From NCBI GenBank assembly GCA_012729315.1, contig JAAYDI010000011.1:1-64000 (forward strand): DNA of 64,000 bases, in the 5' to 3' direction. Source of the DNA: Planctomycetaceae bacterium. Its GTDB lineage: Bacteria; Planctomycetota; Planctomycetia; Pirellulales; Pirellulaceae. How positions within the stretch are numbered: position 1 is the first letter of the stretch; each line of letters begins with the position of its first letter. Below, in pieces: positions 1 to 8,185 of this stretch. The position numbers and the translations under genes are program-made. The notes below the pieces were generated by a model, which was not told where the DNA came from, ran no database searches, and was given only the letters and a program-made list of their open reading frames with translations.

Positions 1-2
1 AC

Positions 3-155
3 CCCATTGATTGGATTGCCCGCACGTTCTACAACGGCAACACGGATCAGTTGATCCCGCAATTTGTGCTGTTGTGGTGCATATATTGGCTGATGCTCGG
101 CTGTGCCCTGGGTCTCGCAGGCTACAAAACGTGGCGATACTTCAAGAGCGGCTAG
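3..155 (+). CDS. C-terminal end of an unidentified membrane protein (partial)
   Basis: Reading from base 3, an open frame of 50 codons runs to a TAG at 153-155. The translated tail has a hydrophobic stretch (LIPQFVLLWCIYWLMLGCAL, about residues 18-37 of the visible part) followed by a basic end (YKTWRYFKSG). This is the pattern of a final transmembrane helix with a short cytoplasmic tail. The gene begins outside the window, so the family cannot be named. It runs toward the convergent phoU gene. Confidence 0.55.
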   Translation, partial: PIDWIARTFYNGNTDQLIPQFVLLWCIYWLMLGCALGLAGYKTWRYFKSG

Positions 156-398
156 CGCGTCCTTGACGACAACTGTCACGGCGGCTTGCAGGTAGCCGCG
201 TCGGTCGAAATCGCAAAACGTCTTTCGGCAGTCGATACAGCAGCCGCCTGTGCCGCGCACGATAGTCCGATTGGCCGTGTGGCGCGGCTTACCTGTTAGC
301 CGTGCCGAAAGCGCGGACCGGAACCGGCGGGGGCGGAGGCCGCATGGCAGCGCAACCGGTGTGGTCGGGCTGTCCGCGCCGGGCGGGCGGGGCGGTGC
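156..398. other. Intergenic gap between convergent genes
   Basis: The gap lies between the plus-strand membrane protein tail and the end of phoU on the minus strand. The only ORF inside it (from 250) is rich in Arg/Gly/Pro, typical of noise in GC-rich DNA. I see no hairpin with a T-tract and no RNA gene. Confidence 0.5.
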
Positions 399-1055
399 TC
401 ATTCTCCTTCATGGTGGCGGACGATGCGGCCCTCGATCATGTAGATGATGTCCTCCGCGATATTCGTCGCGCAGTCGGCGATGCGTTCGAGGTTCCGTGA
501 CACGGCGAGCAGTCGCAGCAGCGGCCGCAGATGTCGCGGATTGACTTCGATGCGGTCCTCGACTTCCAGCCGGATGATCCGTTTGAGTTCATCGACTTCA
601 TCGTCGCGGGTGCACACGTCGGCCGCGACTTTCGAGTCGAGGGCCACCAGGGCATCGATGCTGTCGTGCAGCATCGACTGCGTCCTGGCCGCCATTTCGG
701 GGAGCACCTCCGGCACCGCGACCTGTTCGTTGACGACGGCCAGGGCCTTGTGCGCGATATTCACGGCCAGATCGCCCACCCGTTCGAGATCGTTATTGAT
801 CTTGAGCACCGAGACGATCAGGCGCAGGTCGATGGCCACGGGCTGATACAGGGCCAGCACACGGAGACAATCTTCCTCGACTTCGACCTCGCGCTGGTCG
901 ATTTCGTCGTCGCGTTCAGTCACGCGTTCGGCGAGCGACTGATCGCGGTCCAGCAGCGCCTGGACGGCCATTTTGACCTGTTCTTCGACCATGCGGCAGA
1001 GCAGGAGCAGACTCTGTTTCAGCTTGTCGATTTCCCTTCGCAGATGAACGGACAT
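399..1055 (-). CDS. phoU: Phosphate-specific transport system accessory protein PhoU
   Basis: A 218-residue all-helical protein of normal PhoU length with two repeats of the three-helix PhoU fold. It carries the conserved metal-binding signatures, seen as NNDLERVGDLAVNIA in the first half and SRNLERIADCATNIAED near the C-terminus. PhoU proteins sit on the cytoplasmic face, link the Pst transporter to the PhoR/PhoB two-component system and restrain phosphate uptake when phosphate is plentiful. The ATG at 1055 is preferred over a longer frame because AGGAG lies just upstream and homology begins there. It is the last gene of the pst operon, 23 bp after pstB1. No phoR/phoB pair is present in this window. 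Confidence 0.95.
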   Translation of the reverse strand: MSVHLRREIDKLKQSLLLLCRMVEEQVKMAVQALLDRDQSLAERVTERDDEIDQREVEVEEDCLRVLALYQPVAIDLRLIVSVLKINNDLERVGDLAVNIAHKALAVVNEQVAVPEVLPEMAARTQSMLHDSIDALVALDSKVAADVCTRDDEVDELKRIIRLEVEDRIEVNPRHLRPLLRLLAVSRNLERIADCATNIAEDIIYMIEGRIVRHHEGE

Positions 1056-1078: not shown

Positions 1079-1876
1079 CTATCCATACCTGCCGGTCACG
1101 TACATTTCCGTGTCTTTGTGCCGGGGGGTCAGAAACACTTCGAGGGTCGGTCCGTGTTCGACAATCCGGCCCAGGAACATGAAGATGCATTCCTGGCTGA
1201 TCCGCCGCGCCTGCCCCATGTTGTGAGTCACCATGATGATGGTATACTTCGCGCGCAGCTGGTCGACAAGTTCCTCAATGTGTTCGATGCCTTCGGCGTC
1301 AAGCGCCGAGCACGGTTCGTCCATCAGGATGATGCGCGGCTTGAGCGGCAGCAGGCGTGCCAGGCAGAGTTTCTGCTGTTGCTCCAGGGTCAACAGCGTC
1401 GCTTTGCGCCGCAGCTGGTCTTTGACGTCGTCCCAGAGCTGCACGTCACGGAGCGCCGTTTCGACCAGCTCCTGTTTCTGGCCGCGTGAAAACGTCATGC
1501 GCGGCATGTGCAGCCGGACCCCGAACAGCACATTGTCATAGATCGAGATGGGCAGCGGATTCGGGCGCTGGAAGACCATGCCGACGCTCTTGCGCAGTTC
1601 GGAGAGCGAGACGCCGGTGTCGTAGATGTTGCGGCCGAAGATGCGGATCTCGCCGGTAGTCGTCACATTCTCGTAACGCTCATTGATGCGGTTGAAGCAC
1701 CGCAGCAAGGTCGTCTTGCCGCAGCCGGAGGGGCCGATCAGCGACGTGATCATGCGCGGCTTGATGCGGACCGTGACCTCCTTGAGCGCCTGGAAATCGC
1801 CGTACCAGAGATTCAGATCCCGGGTCTGGATCGTGAAGCGGTCGACGCCCCGGGCCAGGTCGGGTCCCGTCGTCAT
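1079..1876 (-). CDS. pstB: Phosphate ABC transporter ATPase, copy 1 (degenerate signature motif)
   Basis: A 265-residue PstB-type nucleotide-binding domain that would energise phosphate import through PstCA. The Walker A (GPSGCGKT, residues 48-55), Q-loop Gln103, Walker B with catalytic Glu187 (IILMDEPCSALD) and H-loop His218 (VTHNMGQA) are all intact. The ABC signature, normally LSGGQQQR, reads LTLEQQQK at 162-169, so the two glycines and the serine are gone. Its start overlaps the stop of the neighbouring pstB copy by 4 bp, which indicates translational coupling. The signature defect complements the defects of the adjacent copy, so I read it as a specialised subunit and not as a decaying gene. 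The reading frame is full length. Confidence 0.93.
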   Translation of the reverse strand: MTTGPDLARGVDRFTIQTRDLNLWYGDFQALKEVTVRIKPRMITSLIGPSGCGKTTLLRCFNRINERYENVTTTGEIRIFGRNIYDTGVSLSELRKSVGMVFQRPNPLPISIYDNVLFGVRLHMPRMTFSRGQKQELVETALRDVQLWDDVKDQLRRKATLLTLEQQQKLCLARLLPLKPRIILMDEPCSALDAEGIEHIEELVDQLRAKYTIIMVTHNMGQARRISQECIFMFLGRIVEHGPTLEVFLTPRHKDTEMYVTGRYG

Positions 1877-2637
1877 CCCAGATCTCCCATCACGTAGCGT
1901 TCGGTCAGCCGCTGGCGGGGGCGGGTGAACACCGACTCGGTGTCTCCCACCTCGATCAGCTGCGACGCGCTGAAGAAGGCTGTATGATCAGCCAGCCGCC
2001 GGGCCTGCTGCACCAGGTTGGTGACCAGCACGATCGTGGTGCGGTGTTTCAGTTCCCGCAGAATATCTTCGATCTTCATCGTGGTGACCGGGTCGATGGC
2101 GATCGAGAATTCGTCGAGGCACAGGATTTCCGGTTCAAGCGAGAGGGAGCGGGCCAGCGTGAGCCGCTGCTGTTGCCCGCCGGAGAGCCGGGTGCCGAGC
2201 AGATTGAGGCGGTCCTTGACTTCATCCCACAGCATGGCCTGCCGCAGGCTCCGTTCCACAATCTCATCGAGCGTGCTGCGATCGCGAATGCCGGCGCGGC
2301 GCGGGGCGTAGGCGACGTTTTCGTAGACGGACAGCGGCAGACCGACCGGCAGCGGAAACACCATGCCGACGCGGCGGCGCAGCTCGTAGACGTTCCGCAC
2401 ATCAAAGACGTCCGTGCCGTCGACCAGGACCTGGCCGGACACCTGCGTGCCCGCCACGAACTCGATCGTGCGGTTGATGCATTTGAGCAGGGTGGTCTTG
2501 CCCGAATTTGCCGGGCCGATGATTCCGAAGATCACCCCGCGCGGGATGGTCAGCGAGACGCCAGCCAGCGCCTCGTGCGTGCCGTAGCGGACACGGAGGT
2601 CGCGAATCTCAATGTGCGGATCGGTGGTGGCTACCAT
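1873..2637 (-). CDS. pstB: Phosphate ABC transporter ATPase, copy 2 (Q-loop and H-loop substituted)
   Basis: A 254-residue PstB paralogue. The Walker A (GPANSGKT, 41-48) and a perfect LSGGQQQR signature (151-158) are present. The Q-loop Gln is Pro95 (GMVFPLP), the Walker B region reads CLDEFSIAID in place of DEPTSALD, and the H-loop His is Asn207 (VTNLVQQA). I checked these codons on the minus strand. The substitutions would cripple ATP hydrolysis at the site built from its own Walker motifs. It can still donate a normal signature motif to the partner copy. The start at 2637 overlaps the end of pstA by 7 bp; longer in-frame starts run through pstA and are rejected. Paired PstB paralogues are known in other bacteria, but this complementary pattern is unusual. 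Confidence 0.9.
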   Translation of the reverse strand: MVATTDPHIEIRDLRVRYGTHEALAGVSLTIPRGVIFGIIGPANSGKTTLLKCINRTIEFVAGTQVSGQVLVDGTDVFDVRNVYELRRRVGMVFPLPVGLPLSVYENVAYAPRRAGIRDRSTLDEIVERSLRQAMLWDEVKDRLNLLGTRLSGGQQQRLTLARSLSLEPEILCLDEFSIAIDPVTTMKIEDILRELKHRTTIVLVTNLVQQARRLADHTAFFSASQLIEVGDTESVFTRPRQRLTERYVMGDLG

Positions 2638-3929
2638 TTCTTGCGGGTCCGGAGGTAGACGCGGAGTACGATCGAGGTGCTGTTGACTGCCAGCACCAGT
2701 CCGATGAGCACGACGGCGGTGGCGTACTGCAGCTCGTCCGACGCGCCATTCACCTGGGTGCACAGGGTGAAGAGGTGCATCGAGAGGGCCATACAACGGT
2801 CATGCAGCCCATAGGGGAAATATGCTTCCCAGCCCTGCTCGGCCACCGGCACGAAGAAGACGGCGCCGGTGAACAGAATCGGAGCCGTCTCGCCGGCCGC
2901 GCGCGATACCTGCAGAATGACCCCGGTCAGGATGCCGCTGATCGAGTTGGGCAGGACGATGGTGCGAATGGTCTGCCAGCGGGACGCGCCCAGGTTCCAG
3001 CAGGCCTGGCGAAACGACATCGGCACGGCGGCCAGCGCCTCGCGCGTGCTGGTGATGATGACCGGCAGAGTCATGACCGCCAGCGTGCAGCTGGCCGCTA
3101 ACACGCTCTTGCCCATGCCGGAGAACAGGACGAACGCGCCGACACCGAACAAGGCGTGGACGATGCTCGGCACGCCAGCCAGGTTCATCACCGCCAGATT
3201 CACGATCCGCGTGAACCAGGAGTCGCGCGCGTACTCGTTGAGATAGACGCCGGCCAGCACGCCCAGCGGGGCCGCGATCAACAGCGAGATGGCCACGAGG
3301 TAGAACGTGCCCACCAGCGGCGCCCACACGCCCCCCGTCGTCATGTAATCCTGCGGGTTCTGCACGATGAAGGACCAGGTGAGTGCCGGCCAGGCTCTGA
3401 CCAGCAGGTACGACAGGATCACGCACACCGGCACGATCAGCGAGATGGTGATCAGCATCAGCACGGTCCGCACCGCCGCTTCGATGACCCGCTTGCGCAG
3501 CTCGTGCCGATTGGCACTGAACACCGGGCGCTGCACCAGCGCGAGGCATTGGGACGGGGCCAGCACCAGTTCGCCAGCCGCGTGCCTCCGCGCCAGCTCA
3601 TCCGCCGCCTCCGACCAGTCGTCCCACGGATGCAACTCGCTGCCGTCGCCACCGGCGGCACCGCCGTGCGACTCGATGTGAAAACACCACCGGGGCCGGG
3701 CATCGCGCTCCGGTTCCTGACCCGGCCGCACGCAGGCAATCTGCACCCGGATCGCCGCCTGCGCCGGCCCCGCGTCCGCGTCGTCACCCGCGTCGAATGC
3801 CTCCAACGTCACCGCCTGGGCCGCCTGCCGCAGCGCCGCGTCCAGCGTGTCGAACCGCGTTTCCGGGGCGCCGTCACAGGAGACGACGTACTGCCGGTCG
3901 CGCTGCGCATTGTCAGGCGCGTCGTTCAC
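2631..3929 (-). CDS. pstA: Phosphate ABC transporter permease PstA with long N-terminal cytoplasmic domain
   Basis: The C-terminal part (about residues 155-432) is a standard PstA permease with six hydrophobic segments. It carries the ABC-permease EAA loop (REALAAVPMSFRQACWNLGA), which docks on the ATPases. About 150 hydrophilic residues precede the first membrane segment. They are rich in acidic residues and Ala and match no domain I recognise. Usual PstA proteins are about 280-300 residues. The GTG at 3929 is chosen because AAGGGG lies 6 nt upstream; an ATG at 3953 would add eight residues. It overlaps the end of pstC by 17 bp, so the two permeases are translationally linked. Confidence 0.9.
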   Translation of the reverse strand: MNDAPDNAQRDRQYVVSCDGAPETRFDTLDAALRQAAQAVTLEAFDAGDDADAGPAQAAIRVQIACVRPGQEPERDARPRWCFHIESHGGAAGGDGSELHPWDDWSEAADELARRHAAGELVLAPSQCLALVQRPVFSANRHELRKRVIEAAVRTVLMLITISLIVPVCVILSYLLVRAWPALTWSFIVQNPQDYMTTGGVWAPLVGTFYLVAISLLIAAPLGVLAGVYLNEYARDSWFTRIVNLAVMNLAGVPSIVHALFGVGAFVLFSGMGKSVLAASCTLAVMTLPVIITSTREALAAVPMSFRQACWNLGASRWQTIRTIVLPNSISGILTGVILQVSRAAGETAPILFTGAVFFVPVAEQGWEAYFPYGLHDRCMALSMHLFTLCTQVNGASDELQYATAVVLIGLVLAVNSTSIVLRVYLRTRKKW

Positions 3930-4866
3930 TGCCGACCCCTTTGACCACGACATCAGCCACGAAGTTCACGACAAACGTCACCGCGAACAACACCAGCCCG
4001 ATGACGAACAGCACCCGGTAATGATCGCCCCCTTTGACCGCCTCCCCCAACTCCGACGCGATCGTCGCCGTGAGCGTCCGGACGGGATCAAAGAGACTCC
4101 GCGGGATCAGCACTGCGTGCCCGGTGGCCATCAGCACCGCCATTGTTTCGCCGATCGCCCGCCCGATGCCCAGCAGCACTGCGGCCAGCAGCCCGTTCTT
4201 GGCTGCGGGGAACAACACGCGGACAATCACTTCCCAGCGGCTGGCACCCATCGCCAAGGCCGCTTCCCGATAGGCGTCGGGCACCGCCTTGAGCGCATCT
4301 TCCCCGACCGAAACGATGATCGGTACACTCATCAGCGCCAGCACGACGCTGCCGTTGAACAGGTTCACGCCGACCGGAGCCCCCGTCACGCGGATGATCA
4401 GCGGCCCCAGCACCATGTAGGCAATGAATCCCCAGACGATCGACGGGATGGCGGCCAGCAGTTCGATGGTGATCTTGAGCGTTTCCCGGGTGCGGCCCCG
4501 CGAGAATTCGGAGATGTACACCGCCGCCCCCAGGCCCAGCGGCACCGCAATGGCCATCGCCAGGAGCGATACATGGAGCGTGCCGACCAGGAGGGCCAGG
4601 ATGCCGTAGCGCTGGCGGACTTCCGATGTCGGCTGCCAGTCCGTACTCGTAAAGAACTCCACCAGATCCAACTTGCCAAACAGCATCGGCGCCGCTTCCC
4701 GGAGCACGAAGAAGAAGATCGCCGCCACAAACAGGATGGCGCTCCACCCGCAGATACGGATCAGCCATTCGATCAGCGGCTCGGTCAGACCCCGGCAGCC
4801 CGCAGGTACTGCGGCCAGACGCCGCAACGTCGGGCGATCACGCGTGTTGACAGGGTCAGCACTCAT
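3913..4866 (-). CDS. pstC: Phosphate ABC transporter permease PstC
   Basis: A 317-residue inner-membrane permease with six predicted membrane helices. It has the EAA-loop consensus EDALKAVPDAYREAALAMGA, the surface that contacts the ATPase subunit. With PstA it forms the phosphate channel. The ATG at 4866 follows the stop of pstS by only 2 bp, so the genes are in one transcript. A longer in-frame extension overlapping pstS is rejected. Length and motif content are normal. Confidence 0.94.
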   Translation of the reverse strand: MSADPVNTRDRPTLRRLAAVPAGCRGLTEPLIEWLIRICGWSAILFVAAIFFFVLREAAPMLFGKLDLVEFFTSTDWQPTSEVRQRYGILALLVGTLHVSLLAMAIAVPLGLGAAVYISEFSRGRTRETLKITIELLAAIPSIVWGFIAYMVLGPLIIRVTGAPVGVNLFNGSVVLALMSVPIIVSVGEDALKAVPDAYREAALAMGASRWEVIVRVLFPAAKNGLLAAVLLGIGRAIGETMAVLMATGHAVLIPRSLFDPVRTLTATIASELGEAVKGGDHYRVLFVIGLVLFAVTFVVNFVADVVVKGVGSERRA

Positions 4867-4868
4867 GG

Positions 4869-5786
4869 CTATTTCACCGGGACATATCCAAGCTGCCGGA
4901 CAATCTCCTGGCCGTCTTCGGCCATGATCCACTGCATGTACGCGCCGACGGCGCCCACGGGATCGCCGACCGTGTAGATCAGCAGGGGCCGCGTGATCGG
5001 ATACGCGCCGCTCTTGGCGTTCTCGACTGACGGCTCAATCCACGGCTGACCCACCTGCCGCGCCACGGGGACCATCTTCACGCCGGGCGTGGCATAGCCC
5101 ATCCCGCTGTAGCCGATCGCACATGGGGTGCGGGAGACCAGCGCTACGGCGTCCTTCGAGCCGTTGGCGTCCAACGAACCCAGCCCCATGTCGTAGCCTT
5201 TTCCCAGCACGTGTTCGCGGAAGTACGAGTATGTGCCGGAACTGTTCTGACGGCTCACGCGAATGATCGTGTCCGGCACACCCACCGGCATGGTCACCCC
5301 CAGCTGTGACCAGCGCGTGATGGCAGGGTGCTCGACGAAAATCGCCGCCAGCTCCGGGATCGAGATCCCTGTGATCGGATTGGTCGGATGCACGTAGATT
5401 CCCATGGCGTCGAAACCCACGACATGCTCCACAGCGCGGCTGCCACGACTGGACTGCGTATCTGCAATCTCCTCTGGTTTCATCTGCCGACTGCTGTTGG
5501 CCATGTCGCAGTTGCCGTCGATCAGGCTGGCGATCCCCACGCCCGACCCACCGCCGAGTACCTGCACCACGACGCCCGGCTGCTGGCGATGGTATTCCTC
5601 GGCCCAGGCCTGGGCGATATTGACCATGGTGTCCGAACCTTCCACACGAATCATCACGCGTGGCGTTCCATCCGCCTGCGACAGGTACCCGCCACAGCCA
5701 GCCAAGAAGACGGCAACCAGCCCCATCGCCAGGGCGGCACAGGACACGACCTGCCCCCCTTCGGGATGTCGTCTCGCACCGCCCAT
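4869..5786 (-). CDS. pstS: Phosphate-binding lipoprotein PstS
   Basis: A 305-residue extracytoplasmic binding protein that delivers phosphate to PstCA. The N-terminal hydrophobic segment ends in a lipobox, LAGC with Cys31, so it is expected to be lipid-anchored. Phosphate-binding motifs of the PBP family are visible: GSDTM near residue 50, GGGSGVGI near 80, NSSRQ near 98 and SRQNSSGTYSYF near 178. It is the first gene of the pst operon, and the 116-bp stretch upstream ends at a Pho-box-like repeat. Length is normal. Confidence 0.94.
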   Translation of the reverse strand: MGGARRHPEGGQVVSCAALAMGLVAVFLAGCGGYLSQADGTPRVMIRVEGSDTMVNIAQAWAEEYHRQQPGVVVQVLGGGSGVGIASLIDGNCDMANSSRQMKPEEIADTQSSRGSRAVEHVVGFDAMGIYVHPTNPITGISIPELAAIFVEHPAITRWSQLGVTMPVGVPDTIIRVSRQNSSGTYSYFREHVLGKGYDMGLGSLDANGSKDAVALVSRTPCAIGYSGMGYATPGVKMVPVARQVGQPWIEPSVENAKSGAYPITRPLLIYTVGDPVGAVGAYMQWIMAEDGQEIVRQLGYVPVK

Positions 5787-6097
5787 TAGGACTCCACGCA
5801 GACAGGCACCTAGTTACAGAAGTCCGCTCATCGTAACACAGAACCCCGCGCTGCCGTAAGGGTGGTTCGCCACCCGCGCCGGAACAGCCGCCCGCAGAGT
5901 GTTTTCTTAACGTTTTCTTAGCGCTGTTCGAGCGGGTCCATTTGAGCGGTGAACTCCGGAGTCCTGTGGCAGACCGGCAATACGCGCCCCGTTATGATAA
6001 GGGGTGTGCTTTGCCGTGGCGGCTGGGATCCCGGCCCATCCGAGAGTACCAGACCTGTATTTGCCCGTGCAAGTATTTGCCCGTGAAGGAGGCCGTT
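5787..6097. other. Divergent intergenic region between pstS and the beta-helix gene
   Basis: This 311-bp region carries the promoters for two divergent genes. Besides the Pho-box-like repeat it has a 13-bp direct repeat, GTATTTGCCCGTG, at 6057-6069 and 6073-6085 (16-bp period), directly before the ribosome-binding site of the beta-helix gene. I see no convincing -35/-10 pair for either gene. Confidence 0.5.
5902..5923 (-). promoter_or_regulatory. Pho-box-like 11-bp tandem direct repeat upstream of pstS
   Basis: On the plus strand two adjacent 11-mers, TTTTCTTAACG and TTTTCTTAGCG, differ at one position. In the direction of pstS each unit reads as a 7-mer (CGCTAAG or CGTTAAG) followed by AAAA. 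The classical PhoB box has the same architecture: two 11-bp units, each a 7-bp half-site plus an A/T-rich 4-bp spacer. The site is about 116 bp from the pstS start codon. The half-site differs from the Escherichia coli CTGTCAT sequence but resembles CTTAA-type boxes of other phyla. It could also act on the divergent beta-helix gene at 6098. Confidence 0.5.
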
Positions 6098-8185
6098 GTG
6101 AACCGACTCGCGCACGCCCTGGGCGTACTGTGCCTGCTGATGGGATCCCCATGTCTGTCGGCGGCTGACTACTACGTCTCCCCCGCAGGTGACGATGCGA
6201 ACCCCGGTACGGCATTGCAGCCGTTCGCGACGCTTGAGCGGGCACGGGACGCGGCACGCGCGCTGCGGCAGGCTGATCAATTGCTCGAGGGTGGCCTGAC
6301 GATCTGGCTGTGCGGTGGCGACTATGAGCGTATGGCCGTGCTGGAATTGACTGCGGAGGACTCCGGTACCGCCGACTCGCCCACCGTCTGGCGATCTTGT
6401 CCAGGCGAATCGGTGCGTCTGCTCGGCGGGCGGTTGCTGCATGGCTTCCAACCGGTGCAGGATGCCGCCATCCTGGCGCGGCTGGACGAGCAGGCGCGCG
6501 GTGCGGTCCGGGAGGTCGATCTCGGGGCGATGGGAATCGCGGCGTTTGGCGAGCTGAGTGCGCGCGGATTCGGACGTCCCACCATCCCGGCCCACTGCGA
6601 GCTGTTCTGGGACGGCCATCCCATGACACTTGCCCGCTGGCCGAACGCGGGCGAGTGGGCGCTGATCGCGGGGTTTCCCGCAGCGCGGGCGCAGGACGAC
6701 GGGCATGGCGGCAAGATCGGCCAGTTGGCCGAGGGATTCCACTACAGCGGTGACCGGCCGGCACGGTGGCGAGACGCGAACGACGTGTGGGTGCACGGCT
6801 ACTGGGCCTGGGACTGGGCCAACTCGTACGAGCGCGTGACGGCGCTGGATCTGGAACAGCGACTCATCCAGACCGCCCCGCCGCACGGTCAGTACGGGTT
6901 CCGCACCGGGCAGCGGTTCTATTTCCTGAACGTGCTGGAGGAGCTTGACCAGCCGGGCGAATGGTACCTCGACCGCGCGGTGGGCAAGCTCTACTTCTGG
7001 CCGCCGAAGCAACTGTCCGACGACGCGCCCCCCGCCATGCTCTCGCTGCTGGACCAACCGCTGGTGCGTCTGACCGGCGCATCGCATGTGACGATCCAGG
7101 GCGTGACGCTCGAAGCCACCCGCGGCAATGCGGTGGAGATCCAGGGTGGTACGCACAATCGCGTGGCCGGCTGCACGATCCGCAACATCGGCAACTGGGG
7201 TGTCCGCGTGGAAGGGGGCACGGACAGCGGCGTGGTGGGCTGCGACATCGTGAACACGGGTGACGGCGGCGTTGTTCTCTCTGGCGGCGACCGCCAGACT
7301 TTGACGCCCGGCAACCACTACGTGGACAACTGCTACTTCCGCTGCCAGGGGCGCTGGTCCAAGTGCTACGTGCCGGCGGTGTTGATCAGCGGCGTGGGGC
7401 AGCGTGTGTCGCACAGCGTGATTCACGATCATCCGCACTGCGCGATCCTGTTTGGCGGCAATGAGCACCTGATCGAATTCAACGAAATCCACCACATCGC
7501 CTTGGAGACGGGTGACGTGGGTGCCATCTACACCGGCCGGGACTGGACGTGCCGGGGCAACCGGATCCGCCACAACTTCATCCACCACACCGGTGGCGTC
7601 GGCATGGGCTCGATGGGCGTCTACATGGATGATTGTATCAGTGGCACGGAGGTGTTCGGCAATATCTTCTACAAGGTGCACTGGGCCATGTTCATTGGCG
7701 GGGGGCGCGATCACCACGTCGAGAACAACGTGTTTGTCGACTGCGATCCGGCCGTGCGCATTGACGGCCGGGGACTCGACAAGTCACCGGTGTGGTTCAA
7801 CATGGTCTATGACTACATGAAGAAGCAGTTGGACGCGGTGCCCCAGGACCTGTATCGTGCCAGGTACCCGGCTCTGGCCAACCTCGACCGCTACTATGCC
7901 ACCACCGACGGTGTGCCGCCCGAGGACAATGTCGTGGCCCGCAACATTTGCGTCGGCAAGTGGTTCGAAGCTGGCTGGCACGCCCAGGAGGACTGGGTCC
8001 GGCTGGAAGACAACTTCGTCGGCCCGGACCCGGGCTTCGTGGCGCCCGACAAACTGGACTTTCGCCTCCAGCCGGATGCAGCACCGCTGCAGCACGGCTT
8101 CCAGAACATCCCCGGCGACGAAATCGGCCTGCGGCTGGACGAGTTCCGCCAGACGCTGCCGCTGTCACCGCCTACCGGATCATGA
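6098..8185 (+). CDS. Secreted right-handed parallel beta-helix protein
   Basis: A 695-residue exported protein. The GTG start at 6098 is chosen because AAGGAGG lies 5 nt upstream and a clean signal peptide follows (VNRLAHALGVLCLLMGSPC, cleaved near residue 22); longer in-frame starts lack this. The mature N-terminus DYYVSPAGDDANPGT is typical of secreted beta-helix polysaccharide-active proteins. Repeated short strands with N/G turns between about residues 320 and 560 (for example THNRVAGCTIRNIGNWGVRVEGGTDSG split over two coils) indicate a pectate-lyase-like right-handed helix. It probably binds or cleaves a polysaccharide outside the cytoplasm; the substrate cannot be inferred. Its 3' end overlaps the convergent lactonase gene by 14 bp. 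Confidence 0.85.
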   Translation: MNRLAHALGVLCLLMGSPCLSAADYYVSPAGDDANPGTALQPFATLERARDAARALRQADQLLEGGLTIWLCGGDYERMAVLELTAEDSGTADSPTVWRSCPGESVRLLGGRLLHGFQPVQDAAILARLDEQARGAVREVDLGAMGIAAFGELSARGFGRPTIPAHCELFWDGHPMTLARWPNAGEWALIAGFPAARAQDDGHGGKIGQLAEGFHYSGDRPARWRDANDVWVHGYWAWDWANSYERVTALDLEQRLIQTAPPHGQYGFRTGQRFYFLNVLEELDQPGEWYLDRAVGKLYFWPPKQLSDDAPPAMLSLLDQPLVRLTGASHVTIQGVTLEATRGNAVEIQGGTHNRVAGCTIRNIGNWGVRVEGGTDSGVVGCDIVNTGDGGVVLSGGDRQTLTPGNHYVDNCYFRCQGRWSKCYVPAVLISGVGQRVSHSVIHDHPHCAILFGGNEHLIEFNEIHHIALETGDVGAIYTGRDWTCRGNRIRHNFIHHTGGVGMGSMGVYMDDCISGTEVFGNIFYKVHWAMFIGGGRDHHVENNVFVDCDPAVRIDGRGLDKSPVWFNMVYDYMKKQLDAVPQDLYRARYPALANLDRYYATTDGVPPEDNVVARNICVGKWFEAGWHAQEDWVRLEDNFVGPDPGFVAPDKLDFRLQPDAAPLQHGFQNIPGDEIGLRLDEFRQTLPLSPPTGS

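Follow-up and report, generated by a model that had tools for sequence, protein, structure and literature searches.

The Pst system is a textbook importer whose ATPase is as a rule regarded as a homodimer in which both sites are equal, and a typical PstB carries its own Q-loop Gln, an LSGGQ signature and an H-loop His within one chain. An operon of a Planctomycetaceae bacterium raises the question how a Pst importer might be powered by two PstB copies of which neither holds this set. The window, by which we mean the whole stretch of DNA that was analysed (64,000 nucleotides of contig JAAYDI010000011.1, assembly GCA_012729315.1), carries on its minus strand the genes pstS, pstC, pstA, copy 2, copy 1 and phoU in this order. 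The two ABC ATPases, copy 2 (PstB2, 1873-2637, 254 aa) and copy 1 (PstB1, 1079-1876, 265 aa), are both intact open frames and share 4 bases, where copy 1 starts before copy 2 has ended. Upstream lie the PstA permease (2631-3953; TIGR00974, score 255.4 against a cut-off of 193.45), the PstC permease (3913-4932; TIGR02138, 288.0 against 196.45), for which a GTG start is listed and the true start may be internal, and a PstS-type phosphate-binding protein (4869-5786), which falls just under the cut-off of TIGR02136 (204.3 against 206.6) and is well above that of PF12849. The PhoU regulator (399-1055, start set at MSVHLRRE) exceeds the cut-off of TIGR02135. With PstC and PstA above their curated cut-offs and a PstS-type binding protein present, the criterion for a Pst-type importer as a system is met. 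Divergent from pstS, a long open reading frame on the plus strand (5942-8185) appears by eye to encode a secreted right-handed beta-helix protein.

The PstB equivalog TIGR00972 was the best match of both copies, each near full length, and both missed its curated cut-off of 343.2 bits (copy 1 319.5, copy 2 288.8 bits). By genomic context, a pst operon with PstS, PstC, PstA and PhoU, both qualify as PstB. By the presence of Gln, LSGGQ and His in a single chain both fail, copy 1 for lack of LSGGQ and copy 2 for lack of Gln and His. In copy 1 we find the Walker A motif GPSGCGKT, the Q-loop Gln103 (codon 1568-1570, minus strand, as are all codons given here), the catalytic Walker B Glu187 (1316-1318), a SALD D-loop and the H-loop His218 (1223-1225), and the signature at residues 162-166 (1379-1393) reads LTLEQ instead of LSGGQ. 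Copy 2 has the Walker A motif GPANSGKT and an LSGGQ signature (residues 151-155, 2173-2187), together with altered Q-, D- and H-loops: Pro95 (2353-2355), SIAID at residues 178-182 (2092-2106) and Asn207 (2017-2019). Its P-loop Lys47 and catalytic Glu176 are retained, and the degenerate site may therefore still bind ATP. A sequence-only reading of this locus had named motif residues of both copies, though not Lys47 and Glu176 of copy 2, and every residue it named proved correct in a residue-by-residue check.

We counted motifs over loci L001-L186. The best BLAST score, and not the motifs, decided whether a row counted as copy 1, copy 2 or consensus, and rows of less than 200 residues and duplicates were removed. 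The similarity searches supplied 108 distinct copy 2 and 106 distinct copy 1 proteins. All 108 copy 2 rows have the Q-loop Pro, LSGGQ, the Walker B DE and the H-loop Asn; their D-loop reads IAID in 72 and IAVD in 36. Among the copy 1 rows, the Q-loop Gln and DE were found in 106 of 106, SALD in 105 (AALD once) and the H-loop His in 104, the remaining two being one row that is cut off and one Tyr. This Tyr (IVTYNM), in the copy 1 of L156 (2111-3067, plus strand), is the sole such case among the 106. The copy 1 signature varies, with LTLEQ in 50, LQLEQ in 19, LSLEE in 18, LSLEQ in 16 and three others once each, and LSGGQ was never found (0/106). The 61 consensus rows all have Gln, DE and His, and LSGGQ in 58. 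Before this last count, sorting by motif had removed nine rows with an H-loop Asn, nine more whose signature is of the DQ form, and one odd row (L154), so the uniformity of the consensus rows is partly a product of how they were selected. The odd row comes from the phylum of a Sulfopaludibacter genome and is a third PstB-like reading frame directly after copy 1 (1-840, minus strand), in which neither a Q-loop Gln nor a signature can be recognised and the H-loop has Asn (GAAGSGKST / VGLVGTP / MATNDLKQA).

The copy 2 rows share a mean pairwise identity of 0.64, the copy 1 rows one of 0.65. Since Pro and Asn are fixed in 108/108 at about 64% mean identity, the motif state of copy 2 is beyond chance. 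Among the 249 core columns, fixation reaches 99% or more at 72 in copy 2, with Pro and Asn included, and at 78 in copy 1. Fixed changes against a conserved consensus residue number 11 in copy 2, all of them in or next to Walker A, the Q-loop, the signature helix, Walker B/D-loop or the H-loop; copy 1 has 7 specific fixed changes, three of them within the signature or immediately behind it. Furthermore, we observed purifying selection: among close relatives the median dN/dS of the two copies is 0.095 (40/56 comparisons usable) and 0.10 (31/53), and the highest value is 0.26. Relatives in which one copy is a plain pseudogene, or in which each copy is fully consensus, had been named as findings that would refute the pairing. 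Neither was met in pairs of the window type, with dN/dS around 0.1 and none of the 108 and 106 distinct rows fully consensus.

If the two motif sets belong together, they should co-occur as adjacent genes in relatives, the check that had been proposed for the sequence-only reading. Indeed, in 119/122 copy 2 loci a same-strand copy 1 lies downstream. The remaining three are cut by contig ends, which fall within copy 2 in L090 and L092 and within copy 1 in L148. The median distance from copy 2 to the first aligned residue of copy 1 is 36 bases, the exceptions being L172 at 194 bases and L046 and L056, each at about 0.6 kb. The gap in L046 (2662-3152, plus strand) holds two small reading frames of 76 and 87 aa that look by eye like a RelE/ParE-type toxin-antitoxin pair; the gap in L056 is similar in size. 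PstA was found directly upstream of copy 2 in 118/119 loci, and the sequence of L056 begins too near to copy 2 for this to be judged. The paired operon of L069, like that of L074, has a consensus PstA-PstB set directly upstream, so that two Pst types adjoin. A natural fusion of copy 2 with copy 1, which would have been direct proof of the heterodimer, was also sought, since long open frames of up to 1057 aa had appeared, and was rejected; the loci that were read have separate reading frames. The distances of copy 1 and copy 2 correlate (r = 0.836, 106 pairs; highest of 999 permutations 0.112), a result that plain co-inheritance would give as well.

A scan with copy 2 as query, one genome per species, kept the best 80 of 436 relatives, and 55 of these 80 are copy 2 (L039-L092 and L111; at least 59% identity), mostly from MAGs titled Planctomycetota. 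Whole-genome searches recovered copy 2 in 29/392 Planctomycetota genomes (E <= 1e-82), at 30 places in 29/297 genomes of the Sulfopaludibacter phylum (E <= 9e-89; gap to 2e-81), in 6/288 genomes of the phylum of a Verrucomicrobiales genome (E <= 1.2e-94; gap to 4e-81) and in 4/193 of the phylum of a genome titled uncultured Archangium (motifs read). For the Sulfopaludibacter and Verrucomicrobiales phyla motifs were read at the 20 best places each only. On plasmids, 137 records matched copy 2, all below 60% identity and with motifs unread; 8 of the 10 listed are annotated as PstB or phosphate ABC ATPase. The same 392 Planctomycetota genomes contain copy 2 in 29 and copy 1 in 34. Two genomes (G159, G246) had copy 2 only, and in both copy 1 is cut at a contig end (L135, L137). 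Seven had copy 1 only: in G131 the contig start truncates copy 2, and the remaining six are more divergent pairs. Once contig ends and divergent pairs were considered, no lone copy 1 or copy 2 was left in these 392 genomes.

Each ATP site of an ABC dimer is shared: one subunit supplies Walker A and B, the Q-loop and the H-loop, and its partner supplies the signature (PMC7756269). In the mechanism that we propose, PstB1 and PstB2 would pair as a heterodimer beneath PstA and PstC. The Walker A/B, Q-loop and H-loop of PstB1 and the LSGGQ of PstB2 would form a complete site that hydrolyses ATP. Walker A/B of PstB2, with its Pro and Asn, and the glycine-less signature of PstB1 would form a degenerate site, which probably binds ATP and plays a structural or allosteric role, as in asymmetric exporters. 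The degenerate site of such exporters can hold ATP and help to keep the ATPases engaged (PMC7756269). The copy 2 site, with Lys and Glu kept, may hold ATP likewise, an inference by analogy.

We regard it as likely that the ATPases of this Pst importer form an obligate PstB1:PstB2 heterodimer, in which one ATP site is competent and the other degenerate. Selection on a heterodimer predicts that LSGGQ stays fixed on a subunit without its own Gln and His, a state hard to explain for homodimers. The earlier proposal of a heterodimer with one complete site is supported by the motif co-occurrence, while heterodimer formation and hydrolysis at that site alone, once per cycle, remain inference. The criterion for an asymmetric transporter, two chains that jointly provide one consensus and one degenerate site, is met at the sequence level only. 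What speaks against the heterodimer is that the complex is inferred, with folds of single chains and no dimer data behind it, and that one copy 1 (L156) lacks the H-loop His. The pair is conserved and, judged without biochemistry, probably functional.

The alternative that survives best is that the copies form two homodimers, in which copy 1 drives transport through a signature that is noncanonical yet functional and copy 2 serves as a regulator or decoy without hydrolysis, for example a PhoU or signalling partner. Copy 1 does have its own Walker, Q-loop and H-loop residues, and a copy 1 homodimer with two odd signatures could have some residual activity. A precedent for unequal roles comes from the tandem pstB1/pstB2 of Enterococcus, likewise two pstB genes in one Pst system: in E. 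faecalis the adjacent PstBs differ in role, and excess PstB2 can replace PstB1 (PMC12096839). However, both copies of the E. faecalis pair (L105) have consensus catalytic motifs, unlike the window pair. The invariant LSGGQ of copy 2 is a further difficulty, since a signature acts on the ATP of the partner (PMC7756269); selection to keep it speaks for a partner whose Walker/Q/H set works, and copy 2 has no such set of its own. We therefore consider two homodimers unlikely, without dismissing them.

A heterodimer might also form in which neither site hydrolyses at a normal rate, so that the complex would be mainly a phosphate sensor feeding PhoU and not a pump. Pst signals through PhoU, and phoU follows the pair in many longer loci. 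Yet one complete consensus site is preserved across two proteins, and PstS, PstC and PstA are retained in longer loci, and we give this possibility very little credence.

It is about as implausible that each copy pairs with a consensus PstB of another operon and not with its neighbour. The genome of the window (G000, 213 contigs) does contain one further close PstB (C115 / L002) at a separate place, with all motifs consensus. It is preceded by a PstA-like reading frame with a long soluble part, as judged by eye. A search with a consensus PstB as query covered 47 pair genomes (47 of the 55 copy 2 relatives), with Enterococcus as a control in 48th place. A further PstB was found in 16/47, which could pair with either copy, as could that of the window's own genome; one of the 47 was cut off. 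In 30/47, on the other hand, no PstB beyond the two pair genes was detected at E <= 1e-45, and the two genes travel together, with a 4-base overlap in the window. The pair genomes are largely MAGs of which completeness is not given, so the absence of another PstB is not certain. Finally, decay of one copy as a redundant duplicate under relaxed selection has next to no chance of being right, because pseudogene drift, of which motif loss is the usual sign and which the additional consensus PstB of this genome would permit, is ruled out by motif fixation and dN/dS, and 30/47 pair genomes yielded no other PstB.

The heterodimer with one competent site can be placed beside several known systems. 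E. coli PstSCAB (9k3s, 9k3x) has the same operon, subunit set and fold, and differs in having one PstB sequence (two chains per entry) with consensus motifs, where the window has two PstBs with complementary losses. B. subtilis PstBA/PstBB also come from two pstB genes and were modelled as a mixed pair (PMC11466899); their motifs were unchecked. The asymmetric exporters TM287/288, TmrAB, TAP (ABCB2/B3) and Pdr5 share one consensus and one degenerate site with our proposal, and the odd Pdr5 signature LNVEQ resembles LTLEQ of the window (PMC7756269). In these exporters the degenerate site often also has a changed Walker B Glu (PMC7756269), whereas the window pair keeps this Glu, has lost Gln, His and the opposite signature, and belongs to a Pst importer. 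Among importers, RbsA and NupO have one degenerate ATP site; they are, however, type II importers in which a single fused chain contains both ATPase domains, and the window has two genes and a type I importer (PMC11466899). DppABCDF of E. coli is an importer with two different ATPase subunits, for which the authors propose that both bind and hydrolyse ATP (PMC12136057), unlike our proposal for the window. The expectation that an asymmetric importer would be unusual fits Pst, but among other importers RbsA and NupO already have a degenerate site (PMC11466899). Among the literature matches listed, we encountered no account of PstB pairs that are complementary or degenerate; most subscription journals and bioRxiv preprints were outside the scope. 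Asymmetric ABC transporters and degenerate importers were already known, and the paired PstB type is a well-supported variation on them. If our proposal is true, it would provide a conserved natural two-gene Pst with one complete site, in which the ATP need per cycle and the role of the second site are testable by subunit exchange, and it would sharpen the annotation of both pstB genes.

Motif splits are not confined to the window type. Loci L173-L186 from the Verrucomicrobiota phylum contain a pair in 9/14 read, with a Q-loop Ala, LSGGQ, SGLD and an H-loop Asn in one copy and an LP[LM]DQ signature with otherwise consensus motifs in the partner; the other five have a single consensus or near-consensus PstB, and the Verrucomicrobiales-phylum search gave eight further places outside this reading. 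Six Planctomycetota loci (L202-L207) have the same Ala/Asn split, with LS[APL]EQ partners. A divergent copy 2 query in the phylum of a Desulfohalobiaceae genome revealed a split in 8 of the ten best loci and in L228, with Gln replaced by Ala or Ser, His by Asn, and L[ST][LE]E[QM] in the partner; these counts describe top matches and are not a rate. A divergent copy 1 query was of no use in other phyla, where consensus PstB scored too highly to discriminate.

Partial stages were detected as well. In L224, from the phylum of Carboxydothermus (1429-3045, plus strand), one copy has a Q-loop Ala with His kept, facing a partner whose LSLGQ signature has lost one glycine. L210 pairs a consensus copy with an LTLGQ copy, and L217 has Gln changed to Asp with His kept, followed by phoU. 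The other nine loci of the Carboxydothermus-phylum search (L218-L223, L225-L227) are consensus or near it. Tandem PstBs with consensus motifs in both copies occur in Enterococcus, Vagococcus, L231 and L232, and therefore a tandem arrangement alone does not imply asymmetry. This partial-to-full split series is material for studying the evolution of asymmetric ABC motors.

In a 69-row tree with the motif columns removed, copy 1-like rows formed one branch (98/88), as did copy 2-like rows (85/57; 82% of bootstrap trees). In a 107-row tree with a weak backbone the copy 1 label required two changes and the copy 2 label three. A single ancient origin of the pair, as far as these trees can indicate, is consistent with the data and not shown, a grading that we lowered because wider sampling weakened the tree. 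The broadest scenario would be that tandem pstB duplication and complementary degeneration gave rise, in several phyla, to obligately heterodimeric type I phosphate importers with one catalytic site, often as the only Pst ATPase, that hydrolyse one ATP per cycle and use the degenerate site as a latch or signalling site, with partial stages surviving. For this scenario as a whole we judge the chances to be evenly balanced.

The permease carries a mark of the paired type. The EAA (coupling-helix) segment of window-type PstA, that of the window itself included, approximates xACWN, with Trp in 110/110 rows (112 minus two from the neighbouring consensus operons of L069 and L074), and this Trp was found in 0/37 PstA of consensus loci (37 of 49 rows, 12 being lost to an alignment-score filter) and in 0/7 of the Verrucomicrobiota type. 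In the window-type operons, the PstC segments show no Trp in any of the 97 rows listed out of 103. The pattern hints at a contact between PstA and the remodelled Q-loop face of copy 2, which is inferred. The PstA of the window also has a long N-terminal extension before the PstA-model match (residues 1-150; 3504-3953, minus strand), which is poorly conserved in pair operons. As a pair-specific trait it was rejected: residues 1-150 gave 27 matches and the remainder 114 (E < 0.01; two database records gave format warnings), and it is therefore not general among pair operons.

Both copies are confidently predicted, as single chains only, to fold as PstB-like ATPases. AlphaFold2 models reached pLDDT 92.4 and pTM 0.88 for copy 2 and pLDDT 91.3 and pTM 0.88 for copy 1. 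The best solved match of both was E. coli PstB of PstSCAB (9k3s for copy 2), with TM-scores by query length of 0.92 and 0.89 for the two copies, taking the better of the two E. coli PstSCAB entries.
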